From Solibacillus sp. FSL R7-0682 (GTDB taxonomy: Bacteria > Bacillota > Bacilli > Bacillales_A > Planococcaceae), in NCBI RefSeq assembly GCF_038005985.1, contig NZ_JBBOUI010000001.1:2748001-2812000 (forward strand): a stretch of 64,000 nt of DNA, given 5' to 3'. A program made the translations under genes and the position numbers. Within the stretch, counting starts at the first letter, position 1. Each line of letters begins with the position of its first letter. Positions 35,257-50,100 of the stretch are shown piece by piece. The notes beneath the pieces are model-generated. The model searched no databases and was not told the DNA's origin. It saw nothing but the letters and a program-made list of their open reading frames with translations.

Positions 35257-35934
35257 ATGCCTAAACTAACATCCGATCAATTAGCTATTACAATCATATC
35301 GATTGCCTTAATCGTGTTAATTGAATTGACACTATTTAATAATGGTGCGGTCTTTTTATTAGTCGTTGGTGTTCTTTTACTTTTTATGAGTTTCAAAAGG
35401 AAAAAACAGTTTCTATTATGGGGTGGACTTGCATTTTTGTTTTTAGCTATTATTAATCTATGGACATTACGCCTCCTTATAATTGGTTTGTTAATCTATT
35501 TACTTTATAAATATACGACTAAAAAAGAAGACATCATTGAGATTAAAAATCCTATTGAAAATTATTCAACCGAGCAAAATCAATTATTAGGAACAGCACC
35601 AACTACTTCTGAAGCTTATAAATGGAATGACCTCCAAATTCAACGGTTTATTGGAGATACAACAATCGACGTAACCGAAACAATTCTGCCACATGGAAAA
35701 TCTGTTATCGTCGTTCAGCAGGCTTTAGGGAAAGTACGTGTTATCGTACCTTATGAAGTAACAATTCAACTGCATTATTCTACGCTTTATGGAGAAGCAA
35801 CATGCTTACACTATGCGCCAAAGCAATGTATCAATGAAAAGCTCCAATTTGAAGATGGGGATGAAGATGCTAAACGAATACTTGTACTGTATGTGACATC
35901 TTGGATTGGAGATGTGGAGGTGCGACGAGGATGA
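35257..35934 (+). CDS. liaF: LiaF, inhibitor of the LiaSR system
   Basis: 225 residues: about four membrane helices in the first 100 residues and a soluble C-terminal domain (WNDLQIQRFIGDTTIDVTET) of the LiaF/VraT family. It keeps the kinase LiaS silent without cell-wall stress. The stop overlaps the liaS start (ATGA). Confidence 0.92.
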   Translation: MPKLTSDQLAITIISIALIVLIELTLFNNGAVFLLVVGVLLLFMSFKRKKQFLLWGGLAFLFLAIINLWTLRLLIIGLLIYLLYKYTTKKEDIIEIKNPIENYSTEQNQLLGTAPTTSEAYKWNDLQIQRFIGDTTIDVTETILPHGKSVIVVQQALGKVRVIVPYEVTIQLHYSTLYGEATCLHYAPKQCINEKLQFEDGDEDAKRILVLYVTSWIGDVEVRRG

Positions 35935-36956
35935 TCGCTTTAATTGCTCGTTTTTTTATATTACTATGTATAATTGCAACATTTACAATAAGTATTTTAT
36001 TTTTTATTATTGGAGAGCCAACTGAGGAAAAATGGGCATTTTTATTGGAAAAAACATCTTATGGGCTTCCTCTCGCTGGGATTTTTATTATAAGCGCTAG
36101 CTCCATTAGTTTTTTTTTAGCCCTTTGGATGAGTATCTCTATTAAGCTTAAAGAAAATAGTACGACACGTTACGTCAAAAAAGTAGCTGACCCTGACTTT
36201 GCAAAGATGCTAAAAAAGACGAGCGGATCATTAAAAAAAGCGCTTAGAGATGCGAATGACTTAATTGAAACCCAGCGTTCTTCTCTTCAACGACTTGCAA
36301 GTGAAAAAGTTGAAACGAATGATGCCATTGTCCAAGAACGCTTACTAGCTGAGCGCCAACGACTCGCGCGTGAGCTTCACGATTCTGTGTCACAGCAATT
36401 ATTCGCTGCCTCTATGCTGCTATCCGCGCTAACAGAACAAGAAAATGATGCCCAATCACAAAAACAGCTTGGGCAAGTGGAAAAAATTGTTCAGCAAGCC
36501 CAACTAGAAATGCGTGCGTTATTGCTTCATTTAAGACCCGTCGCGCTTCGCAACAAAAGCTTAGCAGAAGGCTTAGAAGATTTAATTGTTGAATTACAGG
36601 AAAAAGTGTACTTTCAGATTGATTATCAAATAGAAGAAATCTCTTTATCAAAAACAGAAGAGGATCATTTATTCCGAATTGCGCAAGAAGCTTTATCGAA
36701 TACACTTCGTCATGCAAAGGCAACCGAAGTAGAATTACTTTTGATTGCCAGAGATCAGCTCGCCATATTGCGAATACAGGATAATGGATTAGGCTTTCAT
36801 AATGAAGGTGATAAAACCTCTTCATACGGCTTAAAAAATATTGCTGAACGTGCTGTGGAGATCGGCTGTACGTATAAGATCGTCTCAGTGCCAAATGAAG
36901 GAACAATAGTAGAGGTAAAGGTTCCAATAACAAAGGAGGAACAAATAAATGATTAA
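35931..36956 (+). CDS. liaS: Sensor histidine kinase LiaS
   Basis: 341 residues: two N-terminal helices with a short external loop, HAMP-like linker, HisKA_3 domain with phospho-His in RQRLARELHDSVSQQLFAAS, and an HATPase domain (ALSNTLRHAKAT, IQDNGLGF). Intramembrane-sensing type. ATG at 35931 inside the liaF stop; the frame upstream from 35901 is a liaF overlap. Confidence 0.94.
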   Translation: MIALIARFFILLCIIATFTISILFFIIGEPTEEKWAFLLEKTSYGLPLAGIFIISASSISFFLALWMSISIKLKENSTTRYVKKVADPDFAKMLKKTSGSLKKALRDANDLIETQRSSLQRLASEKVETNDAIVQERLLAERQRLARELHDSVSQQLFAASMLLSALTEQENDAQSQKQLGQVEKIVQQAQLEMRALLLHLRPVALRNKSLAEGLEDLIVELQEKVYFQIDYQIEEISLSKTEEDHLFRIAQEALSNTLRHAKATEVELLLIARDQLAILRIQDNGLGFHNEGDKTSSYGLKNIAERAVEIGCTYKIVSVPNEGTIVEVKVPITKEEQIND

Positions 36957-37578
36957 AGTCGTTATTGCCGATGATCATGAAATGGTACGTATTGGTGTAT
37001 CCGCCTATTTATCTGCTCAGCCCGATATAGAAGTAATAGGTGAGGCAACTAATGGACAAGAAGCAGTTGATAAAGTTTTAGCATTACGACCAGACTTAGT
37101 GTTAATGGATAATGTTATGCCAATAAAAACAGGGGCGCAGGCAACAGCCGAAATTTTAGCACAATGGCCTCAAGCAAAGGTAATGATGGTTACGAGCTTT
37201 ATCGATGATGATAAACTTTATCCCGCTTTGGAAGCTGGTGCAGTCAGCTATATTTTAAAAACATCAAACGCAAAGCAAATTGCCGATGCGATTCGCAAAA
37301 CAATGGCTGGAGAGACCGTACTTGAACCGGAAGCAACTACAAAAGTAATGGCTCGCATGCGTGGTACCTCTCCTGCTCTGCATGATCATTTAACGGAACG
37401 TGAGATGGAAGTATTACAATGCATGTCTCGTGGAATGGCCAATCAGGAAATCGCAGAGGAATTATTTATTGCGTTAAAAACAGTAAAAACACATGTTAGC
37501 AATATTTTAAGTAAATTAGAAGTACAGGACCGTACACAGGCGGTTGTATATGCATTTCAAAATGGATTAGTAGATTAA
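36949..37578 (+). CDS. liaR: Response regulator LiaR (NarL/FixJ type)
   Basis: 209 residues: receiver with VIADDHEMVR, phospho-Asp in LVLMDNVMP and Lys in YILKTS; C-terminal LuxR-type helix-turn-helix (LTEREMEVLQCMSRGMANQE). Activates the lia operon. Overlaps liaS by eight bases. Confidence 0.94.
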   Translation: MIKVVIADDHEMVRIGVSAYLSAQPDIEVIGEATNGQEAVDKVLALRPDLVLMDNVMPIKTGAQATAEILAQWPQAKVMMVTSFIDDDKLYPALEAGAVSYILKTSNAKQIADAIRKTMAGETVLEPEATTKVMARMRGTSPALHDHLTEREMEVLQCMSRGMANQEIAEELFIALKTVKTHVSNILSKLEVQDRTQAVVYAFQNGLVD

Positions 37579-38079: not shown

Positions 38080-38175
38080 TTAATGTGTTTTCGTTTTTGT
38101 CGCTACAACAAAGGCTGCTAACACTGCTAAAATGACAACAATAAACGGTGCATAAAAAATTAATAAGTCATTCAT
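38080..38175 (-). CDS. cydS: Cytochrome bd oxidase small subunit CydS
   Basis: 31 residues: MNDLLIFYAPFIVVILAVLA, then AFVVATKTKTH. The pattern LLIFYAPFIVV is close to CydS, the small third subunit seen in the Geobacillus bd oxidase structure, which packs against CydA near heme. Strong SD (AAGGAGAGG) and 12 bases after the cydB stop. Single transmembrane helix. Easily missed because of its size. Confidence 0.85.
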   Translation of the reverse strand: MNDLLIFYAPFIVVILAVLAAFVVATKTKTH

Positions 38176-38187
38176 TGTAACCTCTCC

Positions 38188-39216
38188 TTATACATGCGTT
38201 TCATCTTCCCCTGAAATATAGCCTTTATTGAAAATAAACAACTTAAACACTAAATACATGGAAGGAATAAGTAAGCCAAGACCTGCTATAAACGCGACAA
38301 CAAGTGCAATCGCCATCGCTTCATTTGTAAAGCTATCATGGATTGTTAAATATGGGTAAAGTAAATATGGATAATGCGATATCCCGTACGCAAAGAAGGC
38401 GGTCGCAAACTGTAAAAACATGACTACTACAGCTAATCCATACTTAACTTTTGCCCAAAGTAACCAAATTGTCGCTAAAAACATAATTCCTGATACGATG
38501 AATAACCAAGAGATGTCTACCATTTGCTCATAATGCCAATTTCCTGTAGCTTTCAGTTCAATAATAATCCCAAAAGCACTAACGATTAAAGGGATCGCCC
38601 AAACAAGAGCATACTTACGCATTAAATCGCTCGCTTTTCCATCGCCAGCCTTTTTCGCATACCATGTTAAAAAGACAGCTGAAATGTAAAGGACGGCGGT
38701 TATACTTAAAACGACAATGGACCAAGCGAGTGGACTTGTAAAGAGCGTTAAGTAATCGAGTTTCGGACCTGCTTCGTTCATTGTCACAAAACCACCCTCA
38801 GAAATCGTTAAAACAACAGATAATGATGCAGGAATGAATAAACCCGCTAAACCATATGCAACCGCGTACCCTTTATGACCTCTTAAACCACTGTAAGATT
38901 CAAACGCATAATAGCTGCCTCGTATTGTGAGTAAAATTAAAGCAATCGATGCTGGCACCAATAAAACTGTACCGTAGTAGTAAGCTGTTTGTGGGAAAAA
39001 GCCGACAATTCCAACGAAGAAAAATACTAAAAATACATTTGTAATTTCCCATACCGGCGATAAATAACGCTTAATAACTTTTGATAAAATCTGATTTTTC
39101 CCTGTTACAAGGCTATAAGCGTTGAAAAATCCAGCTCCGAAGTCAATGGATGCTACTATGACATAGCCAAACAAGAATATCCACAAGACAGAAATTCCTA
39201 ATATTTCTAACCACAT
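38188..39216 (-). CDS. cydB: Cytochrome bd ubiquinol/menaquinol oxidase subunit II
   Basis: 342 residues with about eight to nine membrane helices; start WLEILGISVLWIFLFGYVI and motif SIDFGAGFFNAYS fit CydB of the YthB type. With CydA and CydS it makes a heme-copper-independent quinol oxidase. The ATG overlaps the cydA stop by one base, so the two are coupled. Confidence 0.92.
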   Translation of the reverse strand: MWLEILGISVLWIFLFGYVIVASIDFGAGFFNAYSLVTGKNQILSKVIKRYLSPVWEITNVFLVFFFVGIVGFFPQTAYYYGTVLLVPASIALILLTIRGSYYAFESYSGLRGHKGYAVAYGLAGLFIPASLSVVLTISEGGFVTMNEAGPKLDYLTLFTSPLAWSIVVLSITAVLYISAVFLTWYAKKAGDGKASDLMRKYALVWAIPLIVSAFGIIIELKATGNWHYEQMVDISWLFIVSGIMFLATIWLLWAKVKYGLAVVVMFLQFATAFFAYGISHYPYLLYPYLTIHDSFTNEAMAIALVVAFIAGLGLLIPSMYLVFKLFIFNKGYISGEDETHV

Positions 39217-40547
39217 TATTTCGCACCGCCTTTACGTAATGCTAATTCCTTTTCAACAGGGTTATTTTTAAACATTCGACGTAATACTACGATACTACCA
39301 ATCCCTAATACTAAGTAGACAAGACCAAATGCAATAAATAACCATTCTACCCCTGTTGCGGTAGTTGCTCCTTCTTCGGTACGCATAATACCATATAAGA
39401 TCCATGGCTGACGACCTAGCTCGGCTAACCACCAACCTGCTTCAATTGCAACGAGGGATAAAGGACCACTTAATACAATGAACCATCTAAATAACCGAGA
39501 TTCAACCCATTTCCATTGTCGCCATTTCCCTATCACAAAGGACATTGATAAGAAAATCATCAGCATGCCTATTGATACCATTACATCAAAGAAGTAGTGT
39601 GTAATGAGCGGTGGTCGTTCATCTTCTGGAAATTCTTCAAGTCCTGTCACTTCCGCATTAAAATCATTGCTTGCTAAGAAGCTTAATACTTTCGGAATAC
39701 GAATCTCATATTTTACCTCATCCCCATCAAGTACACCAAAGAAGATTAGATCGGCACCTTCTTCTGTTTCAAAGTGCCATTCTGCTGCAGCTAATTTTTC
39801 AGGCTGATATTCCGCTAAATATTTCGCTGAAAAATCGCCAACAATTGCCGTAGCAATTGAGAATATAATACCGAGCTTCATCATTAAATAAAGCGCTTTT
39901 TTATGATAAACTTGTTCTTCCCCTTTTAGTAGTTTGTAAGCGGCAATCGCTGCTAAAATAAAGGCTACTGTCATGAAGCTTGATGTTAAAACATGCCCAA
40001 TTTTTGTAGGCATTGCAGGTGTAAACATTGCTAAAATCGGTTGAATATTAATAAGCTCTCCACCAACAATATCAAAACCTCTTGGCGCGTTCATGAAAGC
40101 ATTAACAATCGTAATAAACACCGCTGACATGGATGCTCCAATTGCTACTGGAATAAGCAGTAACATATGGTGTTTTGGATTTTTAAATCGGTCCCATGTA
40201 TATAAATAAATTCCTAAAAAGATTGCTTCAAAGAAAAATGCAAAAGTCTCCATGAAAAGTGGTAACGCAATAATCTGACCTGCTATTTCCATAAATTGCG
40301 GCCATAAAAGAGACAGCTGTAACCCAATAACTGTACCAGTCACTACTCCAACCGCTACTGTAATGGTAAATCCTCTTGCCCATCTACGTGCCATTAAAGT
40401 ATAGTGTTCGTCATTTCTTTTATATCCAACATATTGTGCAATCAAAATCATCAGTGGCACACCGACACCTAGTGTTGCAAAGAGTATATGGAAGGATAAT
40501 GTTAACTCTGTAAGTGCTCTACTCCAAAACACTGCTGAATTTTCCAT
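39216..40547 (-). CDS. cydA: Cytochrome bd menaquinol oxidase subunit I
   Basis: 443 residues; carries the b- and d-type hemes and the quinol site. Heme-ligand His in LTLSFHILFATLGVGVP, the core LPLFMETFAFFFEAIFLGIY, and GRQPWILYGIMRT. The quinol (Q) loop is of the short form, as in YthA and Geobacillus CydA. bd oxidases have high oxygen affinity and resist sulfide, which is relevant to the neighbouring genes. Preceded by the 25-aa ORF and tauE-like gene on one likely transcript. Confidence 0.94.
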   Translation of the reverse strand: MENSAVFWSRALTELTLSFHILFATLGVGVPLMILIAQYVGYKRNDEHYTLMARRWARGFTITVAVGVVTGTVIGLQLSLLWPQFMEIAGQIIALPLFMETFAFFFEAIFLGIYLYTWDRFKNPKHHMLLLIPVAIGASMSAVFITIVNAFMNAPRGFDIVGGELINIQPILAMFTPAMPTKIGHVLTSSFMTVAFILAAIAAYKLLKGEEQVYHKKALYLMMKLGIIFSIATAIVGDFSAKYLAEYQPEKLAAAEWHFETEEGADLIFFGVLDGDEVKYEIRIPKVLSFLASNDFNAEVTGLEEFPEDERPPLITHYFFDVMVSIGMLMIFLSMSFVIGKWRQWKWVESRLFRWFIVLSGPLSLVAIEAGWWLAELGRQPWILYGIMRTEEGATTATGVEWLFIAFGLVYLVLGIGSIVVLRRMFKNNPVEKELALRKGGAK

Positions 40548-40565
40548 TTTATTTGCCTCCTATCT

Positions 40566-40643
40566 CTAAAAAATTGCTGAAACAATTACAACCATCACAA
40601 TTGACGATACTATGAAACTTACAACCCTAAATTTTTTACTCAT
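40566..40643 (-). CDS. 25-aa membrane microprotein upstream of cydA
   Basis: Reads MSKKFRVVSFIVSSIVMVVI then VSAIF: three basic residues and one hydrophobic helix. SD AGAGGTG is seven bases before the ATG. It lies in the 109-base gap between the tauE-like gene and cydA. Could be a further small subunit, an assembly peptide or a translated leader; no family recognised. Confidence 0.6.
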   Translation of the reverse strand: MSKKFRVVSFIVSSIVMVVIVSAIF

Positions 40644-40656
40644 ATATACTCACCTC

Positions 40657-41433
40657 TTATAAAATATCTATCCATGTTTTTATCGCTGTGCCTAAAATTA
40701 AAATAGCTAAAATAAATTGCAACATTTTAACGTTTAATTTATTGCCCAGTTTAGCACCAAGTGGAGCTGCAATAATACTTGCAATAATCATGACAGTTGC
40801 AGGTCCGTAATCAATTTGACCTGTCATCACTTTCCCAACGGTTCCACCAATCGATGAAATAAACGTTACGGCTAAACTAGTCGCAATTGTCATACGTGTT
40901 GGTATTTTTAGCACCACTAATAAAATTGGTACTAGTAAAAATCCGCCCGCCGCACCGACGATACCAGATCCGATACCTACGATAAAGGCTAATCCTGCTG
41001 CTACTAGTTTGTTAAATGAGATTTCATGGATGGATTGATCATCAATTTGTTTTTTAGGAATAAACATCATGATGGCTGCAATAAGCGCCAAAAGCCCGTA
41101 AACAAGATTCACTGCACCTTCTGATAAATAGCCCGATCCAAAACTACCGATAAAGCTACCAATTAAAATGGAGCCTCCCATATACATGATCAATTCTTTA
41201 TGCAATAATCCACTTTTTCTGTAAGCCCACACACCCGCAATCGATGCGAAAAACACTTGAATTGCACTAATACCTGACACTTCATGTGCAGAGAATGCGG
41301 CTAATCCAAATAATGGTGGAATGTAAAGTAGCATTGGATATTTAATAATTGAGCCCCCGACACCAACCATTCCAGATACAAAGGAGCCAATAAAGCCAAT
41401 TAAAAATATGACAACGATGAACGAAAGATCCAT
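40657..41433 (-). CDS. TauE/SafE family sulfite/organosulfur exporter
   Basis: 258 residues, about eight helices in two repeats, with the family motif [14 protein letters not shown] and its second copy [17 protein letters not shown]. Members export sulfite or other sulfur oxyanions; a tauE gene also belongs to the Staphylococcus cst sulfide-response locus. Start at the ATG 41433 after GGAAGG. Its promoter carries the conserved palindrome shared with sqr and cydD. Confidence 0.88.
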
Positions 41434-41466
41434 CGTACACACCTTCCTTCTAACTAATTTAAATTA

Positions 41467-41511
41467 AGTATAGTAAGGTTTGTCATCATTAAATATAGGG
41501 GTTTACCACTA
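41467..41511 (-). promoter_or_regulatory. tauE-cydABS promoter with conserved operator (site 1)
   Basis: The palindrome TAGGGGTTTACCACTA lies at 41496-41511 on the plus strand; on the minus strand the -10 is TATACT (41472-41467). Centre-to-centre distance is 34 bp, the predicted centre being near -43. The -35 is poor, consistent with an activator. The identical 16 bases occur, inverted, before cydD. Confidence 0.75.
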
Positions 41512-41561
41512 TAACCGCTTTAAAAGCCAATCAAATTTGACGTTTTTTTCACATAAAAATA

Positions 41562-41597
41562 CCCAACATTAAAGTGTGATGATTACTTTAAGTTGGG
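41562..41597 (-). terminator. Terminator of the NreC-like gene
   Basis: CCCAAC.TTAAAGT / ACTTTAA.TTGGG stem, 10 bases after the response-regulator stop, with T-rich sequence following on the minus strand. Confidence 0.8.
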
Positions 41598-41606
41598 TTG
41601 ATTTTC

Positions 41607-42242
41607 TTATTGTATATAGCCATTCGTAATACCGTATTGAATTAACTCTGCTTTACTTTTTAAGTTTAACTTTTGCATAATGTTAGATTTATGACTCTCT
41701 ACTGTTTTTGAACTAATAAACAATTTTTCAGCTATTTGCACATTTGTATAGCCTAAAATTGTTAGACGCACAATTTCTTGCTCCCGTGTAGAAAGAACAT
41801 CTGCTTTTTGATTTCCTTTATTTTTAAATAACTTTTCAATCTGTTCCTTAGGTAGACCTACTTCATAATAAGCTTTATGATTATAAACGTTTTGAATTGC
41901 CTCGTACATAATACCACCCTGGCTATTTTTTAAAATGTAGCCATCTGCCCCGATTTCTATTGCTTGTTGAATATAGGCAACTTCATTATGCATTGTTAAA
42001 ATAATAATCTTAATTTCAGGTAAATTCTTTTTTATTTCCTTTGTTGCCGTAAATCCATCAATTCCATTCGGTATTGAAATATCCATTAAAATAACATCTG
42101 GACTCGTCTGGTAAGCTAATTGAATCGCTTCCTCTCCGTCACTTGCTTCTCCTACTACGGAAATATCTACGTGATTTTCAAGTAACAGTGCTATGCCCCT
42201 TCGAATAAGAACATGGTCATCTACTAATAATACTTTAATCAT
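41607..42242 (-). CDS. NreC-like response regulator (NarL/FixJ type)
   Basis: 211 residues: receiver with VDDHVLIRRG, phospho-Asp in VILMDISIPNGIDG and Lys in YILKNSQGG; LuxR-type helix-turn-helix (LSTREQEIVRLTILGYTNVQ). The insert PNGIDG after the phospho-Asp loop is like NreC/DegU-group regulators. It overlaps the kinase gene by eight bases. By position and by the operators around it, it is the prime candidate to bind the TAGGGG-type palindromes of the cyd/sqr block; S. carnosus NreC is reported to bind a similar TAGGG/CCCTA palindrome. Confidence 0.88.
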   Translation of the reverse strand: MIKVLLVDDHVLIRRGIALLLENHVDISVVGEASDGEEAIQLAYQTSPDVILMDISIPNGIDGFTATKEIKKNLPEIKIIILTMHNEVAYIQQAIEIGADGYILKNSQGGIMYEAIQNVYNHKAYYEVGLPKEQIEKLFKNKGNQKADVLSTREQEIVRLTILGYTNVQIAEKLFISSKTVESHKSNIMQKLNLKSKAELIQYGITNGYIQ

Positions 42243-43269
42243 TTTGTGGTCTCCACCTTGGTAAAACGATCGTAATACTTGTACCGTTTCCTAAATTTGA
42301 ATGAATTTCGAACTTGCCGCCCAATAGATCAATACGCTCTTCCATATGTTTCAATCCTAAGCCTGCACTCTTAATTTTTCCTCGGTCAAATCCGATGCCA
42401 TCATCGACAATATCCATATAAATATGTGTTTTGTCCTTCACAATACGAATTTGAACATGACTAGCATTTGCATATTTCACTATATTATGGAGTGCTTCTT
42501 GAATAACTCGATATAAGTTAATTTCTACGACCGGATCACATCGATTTAAACCTTTTGTTATTAAATCAATTGTAAGTGAAGGTAGATTTTTCATAATATT
42601 GTCTATCATCATCTGAATTGTTGGTTCTAAGCCTAATTGATCTAGACTATGTGGACGTAATTGATGTGAATACGCATTAATATCATCCATCGCCTTTTGA
42701 AGTTCATCCTGCACTTCGTTAATATATGTATTCAGTTTTGGGTTATCTTTTACAAATGATTCAACTGCTTGCAACGCAACAGATACTGTAAATAAAGATT
42801 GCCCTATCCCATCATGTAATTCTTGTGCCAGACGTTTGTGCTCCGATTCTTTTGCTTCAATAAGCGCACGAATCATTTTTTTCGTATTTTCAGTTTCTTG
42901 GGCTTTTTTAAAGGTTTCTTGATCACGTAATACTAGTAAGTACTCGACTTCACCCGTTTCGTTATTTTCATAAATAGCGGCCGTACTCATTTCCACATCA
43001 ATTTTTTTTCCATGATATGTTGGCATTTGCGAAAGAAAAGAAGGTACTTCACTATTCGCCATCAAATAGCAAGTTGCCTCACCGTCTTTTTTTTGCCTTG
43101 TCATACAAAATGTACAATATGGAACAGAATCTCCAATGTTCCAACCTGTTAGTTTTTTGGCTGCGGGATTCATCATAATAATTTCACGAGTCGCTTTCAT
43201 AATAATGATTCCATCTTGTATATGTTCATAAATTTCCTGTAAATAATCACTTGGTAAACGAGCAGTCAT
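42235..43269 (-). CDS. NreB-like cytoplasmic sensor kinase with Cys-rich PAS domain
   Basis: 344 residues with no membrane segment. PAS domain (about 8-120) contains Cys52, Cys55 and Cys67 in CX2CX11C spacing (YCTFCMTRQKKDGEATCYLM). NreB, the oxygen sensor of staphylococci, binds a [4Fe-4S] cluster through CX2CX11CX2C; here the fourth position is Met70. Then HisKA_3 with phospho-His in LAQELHDGIGQSLF and HATPase (ALHNIVKYANAS, DDGIGFD, GLGLKHMEER). The three-Cys site could hold a cluster with another ligand, or react with oxygen or persulfide; that is inference. Own promoter likely, as a terminator precedes it. Confidence 0.88.
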   Translation of the reverse strand: MTARLPSDYLQEIYEHIQDGIIIMKATREIIMMNPAAKKLTGWNIGDSVPYCTFCMTRQKKDGEATCYLMANSEVPSFLSQMPTYHGKKIDVEMSTAAIYENNETGEVEYLLVLRDQETFKKAQETENTKKMIRALIEAKESEHKRLAQELHDGIGQSLFTVSVALQAVESFVKDNPKLNTYINEVQDELQKAMDDINAYSHQLRPHSLDQLGLEPTIQMMIDNIMKNLPSLTIDLITKGLNRCDPVVEINLYRVIQEALHNIVKYANASHVQIRIVKDKTHIYMDIVDDGIGFDRGKIKSAGLGLKHMEERIDLLGGKFEIHSNLGNGTSITIVLPRWRPQND

Positions 43270-43371
43270 TTATTCTCATCCCCTTCCTTTATCCATATTC
43301 TCACGCACGATTTTTAACATGCCATTTTCTATTTAATATTTTAATACGAAGCGTTGCAAAATAAGTACTAA

Positions 43372-43398
43372 AAGGTACCCTCTCTTAAGAAGGTACCC
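43372..43398 (-). terminator. Terminator of sqr-cstB unit
   Basis: GGTACC repeats flanking TTCTTAAGAGA (minus strand) form a short strong hairpin followed by TTTT, just after the cstB stop. Confidence 0.65.
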
Positions 43399-43405
43399 AT
43401 AACGA

Positions 43406-44803
43406 TTATTTTATTTCATTTTTCCAACGACTATAGCCACCTGTCATATTCACTAAATTATGAATACCATTGGCTTTTAAAATACTTGCCGCAATTGCTG
43501 AACGTCCTCCTGCCTGACATTGGACAATTAATTTTTTTTCTGGAACTTCTGAAAGTCTGTTCTTTAACGTACCTACCATAATGTGCTGAGCACCTTCAAT
43601 ATGACCTTCGTTGAATTCTGTTAAATTTCGAACATCAATCACTTCGACATCTTCAGATTCCATTAGAACTTTTGCTTCAGATGGTGTTACATTTTCATAG
43701 CTATCTAATGTAAGTGATTGTTCAACAATTAAATTCACATTCGCATAACCTAGCACTAAATCAATACCAATAGAATGTAAAGCAATCATCATTTCTTCTA
43801 AATATTCTTCATCCTCAACTAAAAGATATAATGGTTTTTGGTAGTCGACAATCCATCCCATCCAATTCGTAAAAGAGTTATTGAATGGAATATTTACCGT
43901 TCCCTTAATATGTCCTTCTGAGAAGCTCTCTGCATTTCGGGTATCTACTACTAAATGACCAGCTTCTAAAATTTCATTAATCTGTTCTACCTTCGTGATT
44001 ACTTCGAGTGTAGGTAGATTTTTTAAGAGCTCGATTCCAATTTTATTAACCGATTTCATAATAGCAAAATAATATGGTGGTTCTGGCTGGCCGTCTAACA
44101 ATCCTTTTACAAAATCAGCTTCATTGTCAAACTGCATTGCCCAGTTAAATTGTTTCTCATAGCCTACTGTTGTAGATGGAACAGCACCTAACGCCTTACC
44201 ACAGGCACTACCCGCTCCATGAGCTGGCCATACTTGTAAATAGTCTGGTAACTGTTTGAAGCGTTCGACAGATTGATACATCACTTTTGCTCCTGAATCA
44301 GCTGTCCCTTGAATACCCGCTGCCTTTTCAAGTAAGTCTGGTCGTCCAATATCGCCAGCGAAAACAAAGTCACCTGTAAAAATCCCGATAGGCTTATCTG
44401 CCGCGGCACCATCCGTTAATAAAAATGAAATTGACTCTGGTGTGTGACCTGGTGTATGCAAGACCTCAAAAACAAGTTTCCCTAGCTCGAACTTGTCCCC
44501 ATCCTTTAAAAGGACATGATTGATATTTTCTAAATTCGTATATTTCCAACTCTCATCCCCTTCGTCAGAAATATACATCGTCGCACTGAAACGATCTGCT
44601 AATTCACGTGAACCCGCTACAAAATCAGCATGAATATGCGTTTCTAATGCACCCACAATTTTCATATTTTCTTTATTTGCTACCTCAATATATGGCGTAA
44701 TATTACGCATCGGATCCACAATTACAGCTTCACCTTTTTGCTGACACCCTATCATGTAGGAAGCATGTGCTAATTTTTCATCATAAAAATAACGTAGTAA
44801 CAT
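43406..44803 (-). CDS. cstB: CstB-type persulfide dioxygenase-rhodanese fusion
   Basis: 465 residues in three parts: metallo-beta-lactamase persulfide dioxygenase (about 1-240; THIHADF metal ligands, HTPGHTPES, TGDFVFAGDIGRPDL), a rhodanese-like domain without active Cys (about 270-365) and a catalytic rhodanese (about 372-463) with Cys429 in VQCQAGGRSA. Cys201 in GSACGKALG aligns with Cys201 of S. aureus CstB. It oxidises low-molecular-weight persulfides to sulfite/thiosulfate. Last gene of sqr-DUF1641-cstB. Non-heme iron enzyme of the cytoplasm. Confidence 0.9.
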   Translation of the reverse strand: MLLRYFYDEKLAHASYMIGCQQKGEAVIVDPMRNITPYIEVANKENMKIVGALETHIHADFVAGSRELADRFSATMYISDEGDESWKYTNLENINHVLLKDGDKFELGKLVFEVLHTPGHTPESISFLLTDGAAADKPIGIFTGDFVFAGDIGRPDLLEKAAGIQGTADSGAKVMYQSVERFKQLPDYLQVWPAHGAGSACGKALGAVPSTTVGYEKQFNWAMQFDNEADFVKGLLDGQPEPPYYFAIMKSVNKIGIELLKNLPTLEVITKVEQINEILEAGHLVVDTRNAESFSEGHIKGTVNIPFNNSFTNWMGWIVDYQKPLYLLVEDEEYLEEMMIALHSIGIDLVLGYANVNLIVEQSLTLDSYENVTPSEAKVLMESEDVEVIDVRNLTEFNEGHIEGAQHIMVGTLKNRLSEVPEKKLIVQCQAGGRSAIAASILKANGIHNLVNMTGGYSRWKNEIK

Positions 44804-44816
44804 ATACCATTCACTC

Positions 44817-45362
44817 CTATTCGTTGTTTTTATTCAAGACCTTCAATGTTGCTTGGATATATTTTAAAGATGTTTGTACACCTGGGTCTTTTAACCATTT
44901 CATTAACGTAAATAATTTTATTGGTTCCTCAATTGTTTTCACTTCTTGTTGTACTTCTTTCAATAAATCAAAGCCTTGTTTCCCTTTTGTAATTACAGGA
45001 TCTGTATATTCTTTTAAGCTTTGTTTGGCATAATCGAGAGAAGTTTCATCTGTTAAGATCGACGTAGCAAAATTCAATAAATTCTCTACTTGATTTAATT
45101 TCTCGAGCACATTTGGTAGCTTTTCGAGCAACTCCAATAATGCTCCTAGCGTGTGAATATTAATATCATAACTTCTAAAAATTTCTTCATATTTATTAAG
45201 TGCATTATCCGCTAATACGGCTTGGCCAAATGCGCTAAGATTATTCATAGCTTCTAAATTCTTCGTATACTCCGGTAATTTTTCTAATAGAGAAAGTAGC
45301 GCTGTTTGCGTAGCAGGGTTATTTAATTGTTCTAGTAGAGGGTTATGTTCCACTATGCACAC
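44817..45362 (-). CDS. DUF1641 family protein
   Basis: 181 residues, helical, with repeated Leu-rich LLEKLPEYTKNLEAMNNLS and DPGVQTSLKYIQATLKVL segments typical of DUF1641. Such proteins are often found beside pyridine-nucleotide/sulfide-quinone oxidoreductases or formate dehydrogenases; the role is unknown. Sits between sqr and cstB with short gaps (7 and 13 bases), so it is probably part of the sulfide pathway. Confidence 0.85.
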   Translation of the reverse strand: MCIVEHNPLLEQLNNPATQTALLSLLEKLPEYTKNLEAMNNLSAFGQAVLADNALNKYEEIFRSYDINIHTLGALLELLEKLPNVLEKLNQVENLLNFATSILTDETSLDYAKQSLKEYTDPVITKGKQGFDLLKEVQQEVKTIEEPIKLFTLMKWLKDPGVQTSLKYIQATLKVLNKNNE

Positions 45363-45369
45363 ATCCTTT

Positions 45370-46563
45370 CTACATCGTTCCTTTTAACATGCCGTTCCAG
45401 TACATTAAAGGAAGGAGGTCTTTTTTCATTACATACATACTTGTTCTCTCTACAGCTTGGTTAAATGGCATTGACTCTGCAGGCTCTTTTGAATAATCAA
45501 ATTCTGCTAAAATTAATTTGTTATACCCTGTAACAATCGGACAGGATGAATAACCGTCATAGTGATGTGTAGTAGGCTGGTTTCGAATAGAAGCGACAAT
45601 ATTTTCCGCTACGACAGGTGCTTGTTTGCGAATCGCTGCCCCTGTTTTAGATGTCGGTAAGCCAGCACAATCACCTAATCCAAATATGTTAGCAAACTGC
45701 TTATGCTGTAGCGTGTGCATGTCCACATCTACCCAGCCATCCTCATTTGCTAAAGTGCTTTCTGCAATAAAGCGTGGTGCTCTCATATACGGCGTAACAT
45801 GAATCATGTCGTATTTTATTTCCTCTTTTTCACCTGTTTCTAAATTCTCAAAAATAGCTAATTTTTCATTCGCTTTAATTTCAATTAAATTTCTTCTAAA
45901 ACGAGCATCAATCTTTTTACGATCAATTACTTTTTCTAAAGCGTTTCGATACTTTATGACATCAAAAATGGCTGGGTTAGCAGAGCCAAATACGACATTG
46001 ATATTTTTACGTACACCCTTATGTTGGAAATAGTCTTCTGCTAAATGCATAATTTTCTGTGGCGCTCCCCCACACTTCACAGGTGAATTCGGATGTGTGA
46101 AAAGGGCTGTACCAGTTTTAAAGTTGCGTATCGTTTCCCACGTATAATCAACATGTTCAAATGAATAGTTACTACATACAGACTTCGTACCTAACGCCTC
46201 TTTCAATCCTTTAATAGCACCCCAGTTAATTTCGATGCCTGCTGCTACAACTAAATAATCATAATTAAGTACTGTTTCGTCCTTTAATAACACTTGATTT
46301 TTGTGAGGAACAAATGCTTCCACATATTCATTAATCCAAACGGCGCCATCTGGTATTACAGATTCCATAGAACGCTCTGAATCTTCTTTTTTGGCTGCTC
46401 CACCACCAACTAATGTCCATAGCGGTTGATAGTAATGATTTTGGGCTGGATCAATAATCGCAACCTCATTGGCTAAACTTTTTGATTTATTGAGAAGTCG
46501 GGCAGCGACTGAAATCCCAGCAGTTCCACCACCTACAATGATGACTTTAAAAGAGCTTCTCAT
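45370..46563 (-). CDS. sqr: Sulfide:quinone oxidoreductase
   Basis: 397 residues, FAD protein with VGGGTAGIS at the N-terminus. Cys130, Cys164 (VKCGGAPQK) and Cys341 (SSCPIVTGY) are the expected redox cysteines; the Cys164/Cys341 pair resembles the type II (SQOR-like) enzyme. It oxidises sulfide to a protein persulfide, passes sulfur to a thiol acceptor and electrons to menaquinone, which the bd oxidase can re-oxidise. First gene of its operon; membrane-associated through a C-terminal amphipathic part. Confidence 0.92.
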   Translation of the reverse strand: MRSSFKVIIVGGGTAGISVAARLLNKSKSLANEVAIIDPAQNHYYQPLWTLVGGGAAKKEDSERSMESVIPDGAVWINEYVEAFVPHKNQVLLKDETVLNYDYLVVAAGIEINWGAIKGLKEALGTKSVCSNYSFEHVDYTWETIRNFKTGTALFTHPNSPVKCGGAPQKIMHLAEDYFQHKGVRKNINVVFGSANPAIFDVIKYRNALEKVIDRKKIDARFRRNLIEIKANEKLAIFENLETGEKEEIKYDMIHVTPYMRAPRFIAESTLANEDGWVDVDMHTLQHKQFANIFGLGDCAGLPTSKTGAAIRKQAPVVAENIVASIRNQPTTHHYDGYSSCPIVTGYNKLILAEFDYSKEPAESMPFNQAVERTSMYVMKKDLLPLMYWNGMLKGTM

Positions 46564-46609
46564 TATATATAAACCTTCTTTCTGATAATCTTTTATTCTT
46601 TACACACAC

Positions 46610-46654
46610 ATCATAAGGAAAATCAAAAATAAATAGTATAGGGGTTTCCCCCTA
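46610..46654 (-). promoter_or_regulatory. sqr promoter with conserved operator (site 2)
   Basis: TAGGGGTTTCCCCCTA at 46639-46654 is an almost perfect palindrome (six-base arms around TTTC). On the minus strand the -10 is TATGAT (46615-46610). Centre-to-centre distance is again 34 bp. Confidence 0.75.
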
Positions 46655-46670
46655 ATCAAACAAACTTTTT

Positions 46671-46715
46671 TAGTGGTAAACCCCTAGTTTTCTTTTACAC
46701 AAATTTGATTATTAT
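46671..46715 (+). promoter_or_regulatory. cydDC promoter with conserved operator (site 3)
   Basis: TAGTGGTAAACCCCTA at 46671-46686 is the exact reverse complement of site 1. On the plus strand the -10 is TATTAT (46710-46715). Centre-to-centre distance is 34 bp, as for the other two. Sites 2 and 3 are 32 bp apart, about three helical turns. Confidence 0.75.
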
Positions 46716-46735
46716 ATAGGAAAGGAGATGATTAG

Positions 46736-48436
46736 ATGCCATTTTTACAGCATTTAATACGTGTAAATAAATCCAAAATCATTATTTTATTTTTCTTATC
46801 ACTATTTTTGGGTGGTAGTATTCTTTTACAAGGCATTAGCATTGTAGAAATTGTGAACCTTGTCTTTATTGAAAAAGCAGCATTTTCAAATACGTATATA
46901 TTTTTTTTATTCTTCTTATTAGCAATTATCGTAAGGCTCACGTCACAATTTACAATGGGGCGAGTGGGGGGCTTATTAGCAGCGGGCGTAAAGGTTTCAA
47001 TCCGAGAGCAATTAATGCAGCATTGGTCATTAATATCGATGGAAAAGCATGTGTCCTTTCAAACAGGGGAAAAAGTAACGCTTTTAGTGGATACAGTAGA
47101 CCAATTGGAAAGCTATTATAGAGAATACATTCCACAAGTTATTAAAACCGTTGTTGTACCGATTATGATTTTAATTGCGGTCTTCATTGTGCATCCAAAT
47201 AGTGGGTGGATTATGCTCATTACAGCGCCTTTTGTCCCGATTACTTATATTATTGTTGGGATGCAAACGAAAAAAAAATCAGAAGAACAGTTAGATGCAC
47301 TCAACCGTTTTTCTGGGAAGTTTTTAGATTTACTGCAAGGTATACAAACGATTCGTTTATTTGGACAAAGTAAACAGCAAGAGAACATTTTAGCAGAAAG
47401 TAATGAAGGCTTTATGAGCCGTACATTAAGCGTATTAAAAATTGCTTTTGCCTCTACACTGTTTATTGAACTAATTGCAACACTTGGCATTGGTATAGTG
47501 GCACTTGAAATCGGGTTTCAAATGATTGTCTTTAAAACACTTACTTTTGCACCCGCTTTTTTCATTTTGACATTAGCACCCGAATATTATAATTCGTTGA
47601 AAGAACTAGGTGCAGCATTCCATACAGGACGAGGAAGCTTAGGGGCTGCAGCATTAATTGAAGAACAATTACAGGAAGTAAAAAAGCCTGTTCAATGGGG
47701 AAATCAAAAACTAACTAATCAGCCTGAAATAACGGTTGACAATGCAAGTTTTAAATATGCGAATGGTCCAACAATAGGCCCACTATCATTTACAATTCAC
47801 CCTGGACAGACGGTTGCATTTATCGGACAAACCGGGCATGGTAAAACAACAATATTGAATCTGTTATCTAGTTTAACGGAGTTAGATACGGGTGAATTGT
47901 TTTTAAACAATAACCTTCGGAATACGTATTGTGCAGATGATTGGTACGCACAAACAAGCTATATTTCACAACATCCTTATATATTTTCAGGGACACTGCG
48001 GGAAAATATTTGTATGGGGCTTGAAGTTTCAGATGAAGAAATTTTTGCCGCCTTACAAAAATCCTATTTGTTAGATTGGCTAACTACATTACCGGAGGGA
48101 CTTGACACAGCACTCGGTGAAGGTGGTCTCGGACTTTCTGGTGGTGAGAAGCAAAGGGTTGCGATTGCAAGAGCATTCTTAAAAAATCCGTCCATTGTCT
48201 TTTTTGATGAGCCGACTGCAGGATTAGATGTGGTAACCGAACGTTTATTAATAAAATCGATAAAAACACTTCGAGAAATGGCTACCGTTATAATCGCGGC
48301 TCATCAGTATGAAAGTATTCGCTTTGCAGATGTCATTTATATTGTTGAAGGCGGGCAAATTATAGCTTCTGGAGCACCAGAATTACTGAAGAATCATCCA
48401 TTTTACAAAAAAATTACTGCAGGGAGGAAGGAATAA
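46736..48436 (+). CDS. cydD: Cytochrome bd assembly ABC transporter CydD
   Basis: 566 residues: six-helix ABC exporter membrane domain and nucleotide-binding domain with Walker A GQTGHGKTT, signature LGLSGGEKQRVAIARA and Walker B VFFDEPTAG. CydDC is a thiol (glutathione/cysteine-type) and heme-linked exporter needed for bd oxidase assembly. Divergent from sqr; AAAGGAG SD. Stop overlaps the cydC start by one base. Confidence 0.93.
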   Translation: MPFLQHLIRVNKSKIIILFFLSLFLGGSILLQGISIVEIVNLVFIEKAAFSNTYIFFLFFLLAIIVRLTSQFTMGRVGGLLAAGVKVSIREQLMQHWSLISMEKHVSFQTGEKVTLLVDTVDQLESYYREYIPQVIKTVVVPIMILIAVFIVHPNSGWIMLITAPFVPITYIIVGMQTKKKSEEQLDALNRFSGKFLDLLQGIQTIRLFGQSKQQENILAESNEGFMSRTLSVLKIAFASTLFIELIATLGIGIVALEIGFQMIVFKTLTFAPAFFILTLAPEYYNSLKELGAAFHTGRGSLGAAALIEEQLQEVKKPVQWGNQKLTNQPEITVDNASFKYANGPTIGPLSFTIHPGQTVAFIGQTGHGKTTILNLLSSLTELDTGELFLNNNLRNTYCADDWYAQTSYISQHPYIFSGTLRENICMGLEVSDEEIFAALQKSYLLDWLTTLPEGLDTALGEGGLGLSGGEKQRVAIARAFLKNPSIVFFDEPTAGLDVVTERLLIKSIKTLREMATVIIAAHQYESIRFADVIYIVEGGQIIASGAPELLKNHPFYKKITAGRKE

Positions 48437-50100
48437 TGCAACAGTTATTTAAACTAATCTGGCAAGATAAGAAAGATGTGTTACTTGCATTACTAGCAGG
48501 AACGGTTAGTGGTTTAACGGCTGTAGCATTGTTTGCACAAAGTGGTTTGTTAATTTCAAAGGCTGCGCTCATGCCCCCCTTTTACGTTATTTTAATCTTA
48601 ACAGCCTTCTTAAAACTTTTTGGAGTAACTAAATCAGCCAGTAAGTATGCTGAACGCCTTATCTCACACCGGGTTACATTTAAATTTATTAGTATTGTAC
48701 GGATGCGATTCTTTAAAAAGCTTCTCCCACAAGCTCATGTGCTTAACACCTATAAAAGTGGTGATTTACTAACACGTATTACAAGTGATGTTGAAATGTT
48801 ACAAAACTTCTTTTTACGTGTGCTGTACCCACCCTTTATTGCACTGTTTGTTTTTTTTGTAACGATATTATTTACATTATTCTTTTCGCCATGGATTTCA
48901 CTTCTTTTATTTGTAGGAATCGTGCTTACGAGTATTGTGATCCCGTATATTCTTTATCATCGCCCTTATCCAACCGGCGTATTAGAAAAAAAAGAGCTAA
49001 CTGTTCAAGCAACAGAATATTTTTATGGCTATCGTGAATTACTTCTCCATAATCAAAATCAGTCGAAAAAAGAAGAATTATTAGCATTGCAAAAAGCCTA
49101 TGGGACAGCACGAAGAAAGGAACTGAACAAAGAACAAACTTCTTACTTATGGAATCAGTTAGTAGCTTTACTTACAAGCTTTAGTGTTGTTTTTACAGGC
49201 GCTTATTTAACGTCTACTGGGGAATTAGAAGGTGTATATTTAGCTCTACTTGTACTCATTTCATTAACTGTTTTTGAATCTGCAGTTCCACTATCAATGG
49301 TGCCAATTTTTGCAAGACATACAAAAAAAGCTGTGGATCAACTAGATGAGGTGACCTCACAAGAAATAATTGATGGGACGATTCAAATTCATGATTTAGT
49401 AAAAGACATTCAATTACAAAATGTAGCTTATAGCTACCCCTCAGCTACACGGCAAGCTTTAAAAAATATTACGCTTCATATTCGAGCAGGGGAAAAAATT
49501 GCAATTATTGGTCCAAGTGGCTCGGGTAAATCAACACTTTTACAACTTCTCATGAAGGAATTTAGAAGAACAGAAGGGGCATTTTTCGTTGGGGACGATG
49601 ATATTGATTCCATAAGTTCACATTCTATGTATAAACATATGAGTACGATGCTACAGCACAATCACTTTTTCTCTGGGACGATTAGTAGCAATTTACTTTT
49701 TGCAAAACGTGATGCAACAGATGATGAGTTACAAATAGCACTTAAGAAGGCCGCGTTAGACAAAGATTTAGAGGATCCGGTTTTTGAAAAAGGCGGGAAT
49801 CTCTCAGGTGGGGAAAAACAACGTCTTGCCTTTGCTCGCCTATTATTAAAAGAAAGTAACTTATGGCTCGTAGATGAGCCCTTTACAAGCTTAGACGTAC
49901 AGACAGAAAAAACATTGTTCAACACATTACTGTCAGAAGCAGCTGATAAAACACTTATTATGGTTACGCATAAGCTAACAAACCTAGACCTTTTCCACCG
50001 TATTTACGTCATGCAGCAAGGGGAGATTGTTGAATTTGATACACATGATCAATTATTAGCGAACAAAGGACTCTACTATTCAATGTTTCATAAAAAATAG
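48436..50100 (+). CDS. cydC: Cytochrome bd assembly ABC transporter CydC
   Basis: 554 residues, partner half-transporter: membrane domain, Walker A IGPSGSGKST, signature GGNLSGGEKQRLAFAR and Walker B LWLVDEPFTSLD. Heterodimer with CydD. Near cydAB but in a separate, divergent transcription unit with the same operator type. Confidence 0.93.
   Translation: MQQLFKLIWQDKKDVLLALLAGTVSGLTAVALFAQSGLLISKAALMPPFYVILILTAFLKLFGVTKSASKYAERLISHRVTFKFISIVRMRFFKKLLPQAHVLNTYKSGDLLTRITSDVEMLQNFFLRVLYPPFIALFVFFVTILFTLFFSPWISLLLFVGIVLTSIVIPYILYHRPYPTGVLEKKELTVQATEYFYGYRELLLHNQNQSKKEELLALQKAYGTARRKELNKEQTSYLWNQLVALLTSFSVVFTGAYLTSTGELEGVYLALLVLISLTVFESAVPLSMVPIFARHTKKAVDQLDEVTSQEIIDGTIQIHDLVKDIQLQNVAYSYPSATRQALKNITLHIRAGEKIAIIGPSGSGKSTLLQLLMKEFRRTEGAFFVGDDDIDSISSHSMYKHMSTMLQHNHFFSGTISSNLLFAKRDATDDELQIALKKAALDKDLEDPVFEKGGNLSGGEKQRLAFARLLLKESNLWLVDEPFTSLDVQTEKTLFNTLLSEAADKTLIMVTHKLTNLDLFHRIYVMQQGEIVEFDTHDQLLANKGLYYSMFHKK

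Follow-up and report, generated by a model that had tools for sequence, protein, structure and literature searches.

Genes for sulfide oxidation and for a bd-type terminal oxidase stand side by side in the genome of Solibacillus sp. FSL R7-0682, and the question raised by this locus is whether they are switched together, and by which regulator. The analysed stretch is 64,000 nt long (assembly GCF_038005985.1, contig NZ_JBBOUI010000001.1, positions 2,748,001 to 2,812,000; below, the window, with positions counted from its first letter). In it, a 16-bp palindrome of the general form TAGKGGNNNNCCMCTA occurs in one copy before each of three transcription units, tauE-cydAB(S), sqr-DUF1641-cstB and cydDC, and a gene pair resembling the sensor kinase NreB and the response regulator NreC (together NreBC) stands among them. 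A preliminary description of the window had proposed that these units form one regulon under an activator, with this pair as the candidate. As judged from sequence and genome comparison, the regulon is real and its regulator is very likely the neighbouring NreBC; we consider it highly probable that the NreC-like regulator of the locus has this palindrome as its operator, and that all three units are activated through it.

The three copies described earlier were recovered at their positions, the one before sqr with two differences, and a search allowing up to three mismatches yielded no fourth copy in the window. Read in the direction of transcription, all three have the form TAG(T/G)GG-N4-CCCCTA; the promoter-proximal half is CCCCTA in each, and the consensus of the distal half-site may be TAGTGG. 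The distance of 34 bp from the centre of the site to the centre of a -10 hexamer with five of six consensus positions is likewise exact in all three cases:

41496..41511, minus strand: predicted NreC-type site of the tauE-cydABS unit, TAGTGGTAAACCCCTA in the direction of transcription
41467..41472, minus strand: -10 box TATACT of tauE-cydABS, its centre 34 bp from the site centre
46639..46654, minus strand: predicted NreC-type site of sqr-DUF1641-cstB, TAGGGGGAAACCCCTA in the direction of transcription
46610..46615, minus strand: -10 box TATGAT of sqr
46671..46686, plus strand: predicted NreC-type site of cydDC, TAGTGGTAAACCCCTA
46710..46715, plus strand: -10 box TATTAT of cydD

Taken by itself the window makes a modest case, because three matches were also reached in two of 100 shuffles. 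At the scale of the 4.06-Mb genome, the exact form occurs three times, always at this locus, and its reversed control not at all. Looser searches of the whole genome fall to background, with 27 matches versus 41 controls for the first motif at three mismatches, and 196 versus 246 for the degenerate pattern at two mismatches. The three exact copies all precede sulfide or bd genes. Ten one-mismatch copies lie elsewhere in the genome: seven are inside open reading frames (ORFs) of at least 100 amino acids, one of these with a five-of-six hexamer at +34, and the three outside ORFs match at most three of six positions at +34 in either direction. As candidates for additional regulon members in G000 these ten were set aside. 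Here and below, G numbers denote sampled genomes and L numbers the loci read, G000 (contig C1) being the Solibacillus genome itself. A second cydAB is present at C1:435143-436453 of G000 (L106), its CydA 68% identical and with no NreC-type site; the genome has two bd oxidases, apparently differing in control.

The main evidence comes from comparison. NreB orthologues of at least 45% identity were found in 17 of 121 sampled genomes, including G000, and a profile search with E up to 1e-80 detected NreB in 33 of 261 genomes of the family and in 56 of 398 genomes of the class. Reading loci of up to 20 kb from 32 of these 33 and from 33 of these 56, with some distant homologues added, gave a set of 63 loci, which takes in near duplicates (L048/L049, L053/L054, L138/L140/L141) as well as the distant homologues. 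This set contains 67 exact sites, and 63 of them are placed from -60 to 420 bp from a gene of the system (sqr 27, tauE 18, cydD 8, cydA 7, nreB 2, cstB 1). A hexamer matching TATAAT in at least four positions is found at exactly +34 for 59 of the 63 assigned sites, and one matching in at least five for 45, while the next best offset has such five-position matches at only eight. For 26 hand-oriented sites the mean match at +34 is 4.42 of 6, the largest maximum in 2000 simple shuffles being 3.15. The scan of related genomes thus supports the activator-type spacing proposed earlier, with predicted sites before system genes and a -10-like hexamer at the fixed distance.

Control counts agree with this. 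Thirty-six of the 63 loci (690,904 bp) hold 38 exact sites versus none for the reversed control, and 49 versus two when one mismatch is allowed; the 17 NreB-bearing genomes of the 121 hold 25 exact sites, control zero, and 21 of the 25 are inside the NreBC locus. Sites precede both cyd units in all five NreBC-bearing genomes among 16 sampled Solibacillus, as well as in G047; they precede sqr and tauE in G059, G072, L040 and L043, sqr and cydA in G106, cstB in G070 and sqr in L041. In L052 and L163 an exact site lies before nreB itself, the place taken by sqr in the window. Two features of a sulfide-type NreBC regulon were found, the conserved palindromic site before sqr and the pair of PAS kinase and NarL-type regulator beside sqr and a persulfide dioxygenase, the latter assigned from its combined metallo-beta-lactamase and rhodanese make-up and from the preliminary description, with no family over the cut-off. 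Across several families of the class, the predicted site is found together with NreBC.

A natural control is provided by nine divergent cydAB/cydDC loci without an NreBC orthologue (G007, G005, G004, G006, G032, G064, G049, G065, G050), in genomes none of which is among the 33 with an NreB profile match; G064 has a distant NreB homologue (30% identity) on another contig. With up to one mismatch allowed, no site was found at the cyd genes of any of the nine, and two of these loci have a one-mismatch copy several kilobases from cyd. The reverse arrangement is seen in G440, G463 and G477, where the NreBC-sqr-tauE locus has no cydAB. A genome-wide search of 24 genomes gave in each of these three one exact site outside the NreBC locus, directly before cydAB and with TATACT at +34, either about 1.6-1.7 Mb from the NreBC locus or on another contig; as the three are close relatives, they count as about one evolutionary case. 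Four other exact sites were read, three of them inside ORFs (L178, L179, L181) and one a terminator-like hairpin beyond trp genes (L180). Comparison thus supports one regulon, since the predicted sites follow NreBC, are absent from the nine cyd loci lacking an orthologue and predict an unlinked cydAB, and it equally supports the NreBC-like pair as the regulator. What sequence and comparison show is where the sites lie, how they are spaced, that within this genome they are confined to the regulon, and that they co-occur with NreBC.

From this pattern we infer NreC binding, activation and the signal as follows. The PAS kinase NreB would be activated (by sulfide in the one studied relative, Bacillus licheniformis), and phosphorylated NreC would bind TAGKGG-N4-CCCCTA as a dimer centred near -43.5, where it would overlap the -35 region and recruit RNA polymerase to the -10 box lying 34 bp further downstream. 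Switched on in this way would be sqr-DUF1641-cstB for sulfide oxidation, tauE-cydABS for the export of sulfur anions and for the bd-type terminal oxidase, and cydDC for the transporter that serves in assembly of the oxidase.

Several observations weigh against this reading. In 28 of the 63 loci no exact site was attributed to a gene of the system, and many of the site-less loci hold distant NreB homologues (e.g., L064-L067, L169-L174). When 15 operon starts (14 of sqr, one of cstB) were re-scanned, six had a site with at most one mismatch, seven a variant with two or three mismatches (e.g., TGAGGGACTTCCCCTA), and two nothing close; several of the variants have a hexamer with at least four of six positions at +34. 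Four of the 63 assigned sites lack a -10 box at +34 (L042, L056, L160, L167); that of L042 has it at +35, and the gene concerned matches SQR at only 25% and is 410 bp distant. Exact sites are also present without the regulator or outside its locus: 22 are found in 104 genomes without a close NreB, and four lie outside the NreBC locus in the 17 NreB-bearing genomes. Of these four, a single terminator-like hairpin past trp genes accounts for two, the third is contained in an ORF, and the fourth is in G056. The exact sites of L108-L111 and L113-L116 have no system gene by BLAST. Site counts are not independent, because the sequences are related, as the near duplicates listed above illustrate; the identity of the motif with the site proven in B. 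licheniformis is presumed; and autoregulation of nreBC is uncertain, because a hairpin sits between cstB and nreB.

Some related elements were seen beyond the regulon as delimited here. In G073, from a distant family, an exact site (L112, 8542-8557) with a four-of-six hexamer at +34 precedes a cydA of another type (30% identity) and lies near an NreB homologue of 31% identity that has the same three cysteines as the window NreB. In a deeper NreBC group (L063, L165, L168) the variant TGAGGGACTTCCCCTA is located upstream of sqr with a four-of-six hexamer at +34, and about 134-144 bp upstream of it stands another similar copy. Nitrate-side relatives of NreB/NreC have related TAGGGG...CCC elements (L130, 6279; L131, 6135), in one case one base shorter (15 bp). 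In G082, which carries a 38% NreB homologue, the gene some 165 bp downstream of an exact site (L108, 9953-9968) encodes a membrane Fe-S protein, judged by eye to be NapH/CcoG-like; this site also overlaps a minus-strand ORF.

The genes and hairpins of the locus are as follows:

38080..38175, minus strand: cydS-like small ORF of 31 amino acids after cydB, named by eye and by its place
38188..39216, minus strand: cydB, without an NCBIfam match, assigned by its position after cydA
39216..40547, minus strand: cydA, with NCBIfam matches below the cut-off
40657..41442, minus strand: tauE-like exporter gene, with a weak MamO match only in NCBIfam, named after the preliminary description
41545..41606, minus strand: hairpin with a T-run after nreC, -16.0 kcal/mol, z -3.9
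41607..42242, minus strand: nreC-like response regulator of NarL/FixJ type, with no NCBIfam family over the cut-off among the matches listed
42235..43269, minus strand: nreB-like sensor kinase, PAS model TIGR00229 over the cut-off, cysteines C52, C55 and C67
43355..43405, minus strand: stable hairpin between cstB and nreB, -16.2 kcal/mol, z -3.1
43406..44803, minus strand: cstB-like gene, with matches to metallo-beta-lactamase-fold and rhodanese models below the cut-off, named after the preliminary description
44817..45362, minus strand: DUF1641-type protein, without an NCBIfam match, named after the preliminary description
45370..46563, minus strand: sulfide:quinone reductase (sqr), best match NF049943, below the cut-off
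46736..48436, plus strand: cydD, TIGR02857 over the cut-off
48436..50100, plus strand: cydC, TIGR02868 over the cut-off

The names of TauE, CydB and DUF1641 come from the preliminary description and context, because NCBIfam gave a weak MamO match or none. Translation of tauE more probably starts at the ATG at 41433 than at the GTG at 41442. The hairpin at 41545..41606 is a likely terminator dividing nreBC from the tauE-cydABS promoter, and that at 43355..43405 a possible terminator or attenuator; a simple terminator scan of the window placed neither among its terminator-like sites.

Could another protein bind these palindromes? A sulfane-sulfur-sensing repressor of the CsoR/CstR/YrkD type, like that of the staphylococcal cst operon, is a very unlikely candidate. 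The earlier observation that there is no CstR gene holds for the window and fails for the genome, which has three CsoR-family genes, all outside the window, among them a CstR/YrkD-like one that heads an operon of DsrE-, rhodanese-, TusA-, dioxygenase- and tauE-like genes (mostly by eye). This operon, located within C1:3634-3640 kb (L133, C1:3634001-3644000) and unlinked from sqr, looks like a sulfane-sulfur arm, and its motif, like that of the window, is a G+C-rich palindrome. However, its own promoter carries ATACCCCTATGGGTA between -35-like and -10-like hexamers (by eye) and in the opposite polarity, the C-tract before the G-tract, whereas the window palindrome lies upstream of the -10 box at the distance of an activator, and its presence tracks NreBC across genomes; CstR/CsoR was rejected as the binder on the polarity and position of the operator. 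Slighter still is the chance that regulation falls to the second NarL-family pair of the window (35901-37578, LiaSR-like by eye). This two-component pair belongs to the same DNA-binding class and lies close to the cyd genes, with only about 0.5 kb between it and the end of their unit, but the recognition helix of the LiaR-like paralogue (36949-37578) is KTVKTHV, unlike KTVESHK of the window NreC and KTVE[SN]HK of most NreC orthologues and of L130-L132 (KTVERHK in the deep group, KTVExHR in some distant ones), and the conserved neighbourhood of the sites is nreBC, conservation having been compared on the nreBC side only. The paralogue was rejected as the binder on its recognition helix and on the conserved linkage of the sites to nreBC. 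Least credible of all is that the palindromes arose by chance or as hairpins and have no regulator in common. In favour of this, a terminator-like stem is also scored at the sqr copy, L180 shows that a palindrome of this sort can be a terminator-like hairpin, and genomes lacking a close NreB hold exact copies too; the fixed +34 spacing, the zero control counts and the recovery of the distant cydAB weigh against it.

With NreBC as the preferred regulator, the signal has to be weighed separately. Low oxygen is the classical setting of bd oxidase, and in staphylococcal NreB the PAS domain has four cysteines for an Fe-S cluster. It is possible, though doubtful, that the same operator and regulator answer to oxygen limitation, NreB being an oxygen-labile Fe-S sensor as in staphylococci, where it holds an oxygen-labile [4Fe-4S] cluster (PMC8774646), and that the sulfide genes ride along. 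The cysteines 52, 55 and 67 of the window NreB are present in all 66 aligned proteins, including those of L130-L132, two of which (L130, L131) adjoin nitrate-transporter-like or NarG-like ORFs (by eye), and so align with three of the four found there, which is in favour of an oxygen signal. Against it, the four-cysteine PAS of staphylococci was not found in the window NreB, which has three, one fewer than in L130-L132, as do 52 of the 54 homologues of at least 40% identity, the other two having one additional cysteine; further distant homologues (L034-L036, L038) also have more. The AlphaFold model of NreB (seven sequences) has a mean pLDDT of 61.7, with residues 52-93, the cysteine loop, below 50, and the placement of the cysteines was not taken from it because its confidence is too poor. 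A close sqr is present in one of the 16 sampled Solibacillus; the other four NreBC-bearing ones have cydAB-nreCB-cydDC only, and they, like G047, have NreBC and sites at cydAB/cydDC with no close sqr, which again suits oxygen. Since these four species have the cyd half alone, as is the case in S. palustris (L039/L048), sqr-DUF1641-cstB and tauE were either inserted into a cyd locus run by NreBC or lost elsewhere; L137 and L139, from another genus, carry the full architecture of the window. Outside Solibacillus and G047, in contrast, sqr is inside the NreBC locus in most loci, and NreBC of B. licheniformis responded to sulfide (PMC9918477). A joint reading, speculative and in its entirety rather unlikely, makes NreBC a sulfide-respiration switch with the bd oxidase as an ancestral or recurrent target beside sqr, its PAS domain sensing sulfide via an Fe-S or other metal site on only three cysteines, C-x2-C-x11-C; sulfide would then be the ligand at the coordination position left open, for which other NreB relatives have a further cysteine.

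The closest known system is that of B. licheniformis MW3, where, as here, a PAS kinase and a NarL-type regulator are linked to sqr and a persulfide dioxygenase, and where a tauE gene and a YrkD/CstR-like repressor belong to the wider system (PMC9918477). According to the same report, phosphorylated NreC binds the sqr-pdo promoter region, the CstR-like YrkD responds to sulfane sulfur, and the mechanism of sulfide sensing by NreB needs further work. The cluster of MW3 comprises 11 genes with YrkD at its head, whereas the YrkD-like operon of our genome is unlinked, and NreC-type sites here also precede tauE-cydABS and cydDC; the main text of PMC9918477 has no occurrence of "cyd" as the start of a word. 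The sulfide arm, from NreBC to sqr-pdo, was therefore already known from B. licheniformis (PMC9918477), and this locus adds the bd-oxidase arm, an explicit operator and the three-cysteine signature. No report joining NreB or NreC with cydAB or cytochrome bd was found in the open-licence papers searched.

Other systems share parts of this arrangement. The CstR-controlled cst operon of Staphylococcus aureus has the gene set sqr, cstB and tauE in common with the locus; neither a CsoR-family repressor nor an operator of C-tract and G-tract was found at the locus, and, unlike in cst, the operator of the sulfur-linked CsoR-family gene of this genome differs from the locus sites in polarity and position. 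Rex and ResDE are redox regulators of cydAB, and SrrAB is listed as another (PMC8774646); all three share the target oxidase with NreBC and differ from it in sensor class. The staphylococcal NreABC system of nitrate respiration has a related kinase and regulator and, as here, a G+C-rich palindromic region at its target genes (PMC8139620), and the recognition helix of NreC is shared by its relatives at L130-L132, two of them beside nitrate-type ORFs. No nreA-like ORF was seen by eye beside nreBC at this locus, and no nar or nir targets were found among the three exact genomic sites.

Sulfide detoxification would here be tied under one sensor to the class of terminal oxidase that is least blocked by sulfide, the bd oxidase of Escherichia coli being the sulfide-tolerant example (PMC4815019), a logic suited to aerobic life in sulfidic soil. 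With the explicit operator TAGKGGNNNNCCMCTA and a -10 box at +34, candidate members of the regulon become callable in many Bacilli, and sulfide sensing by NreB becomes testable at three named cysteines. The Solibacillus species that have the cyd half only would offer a natural test of the identity of the signal.

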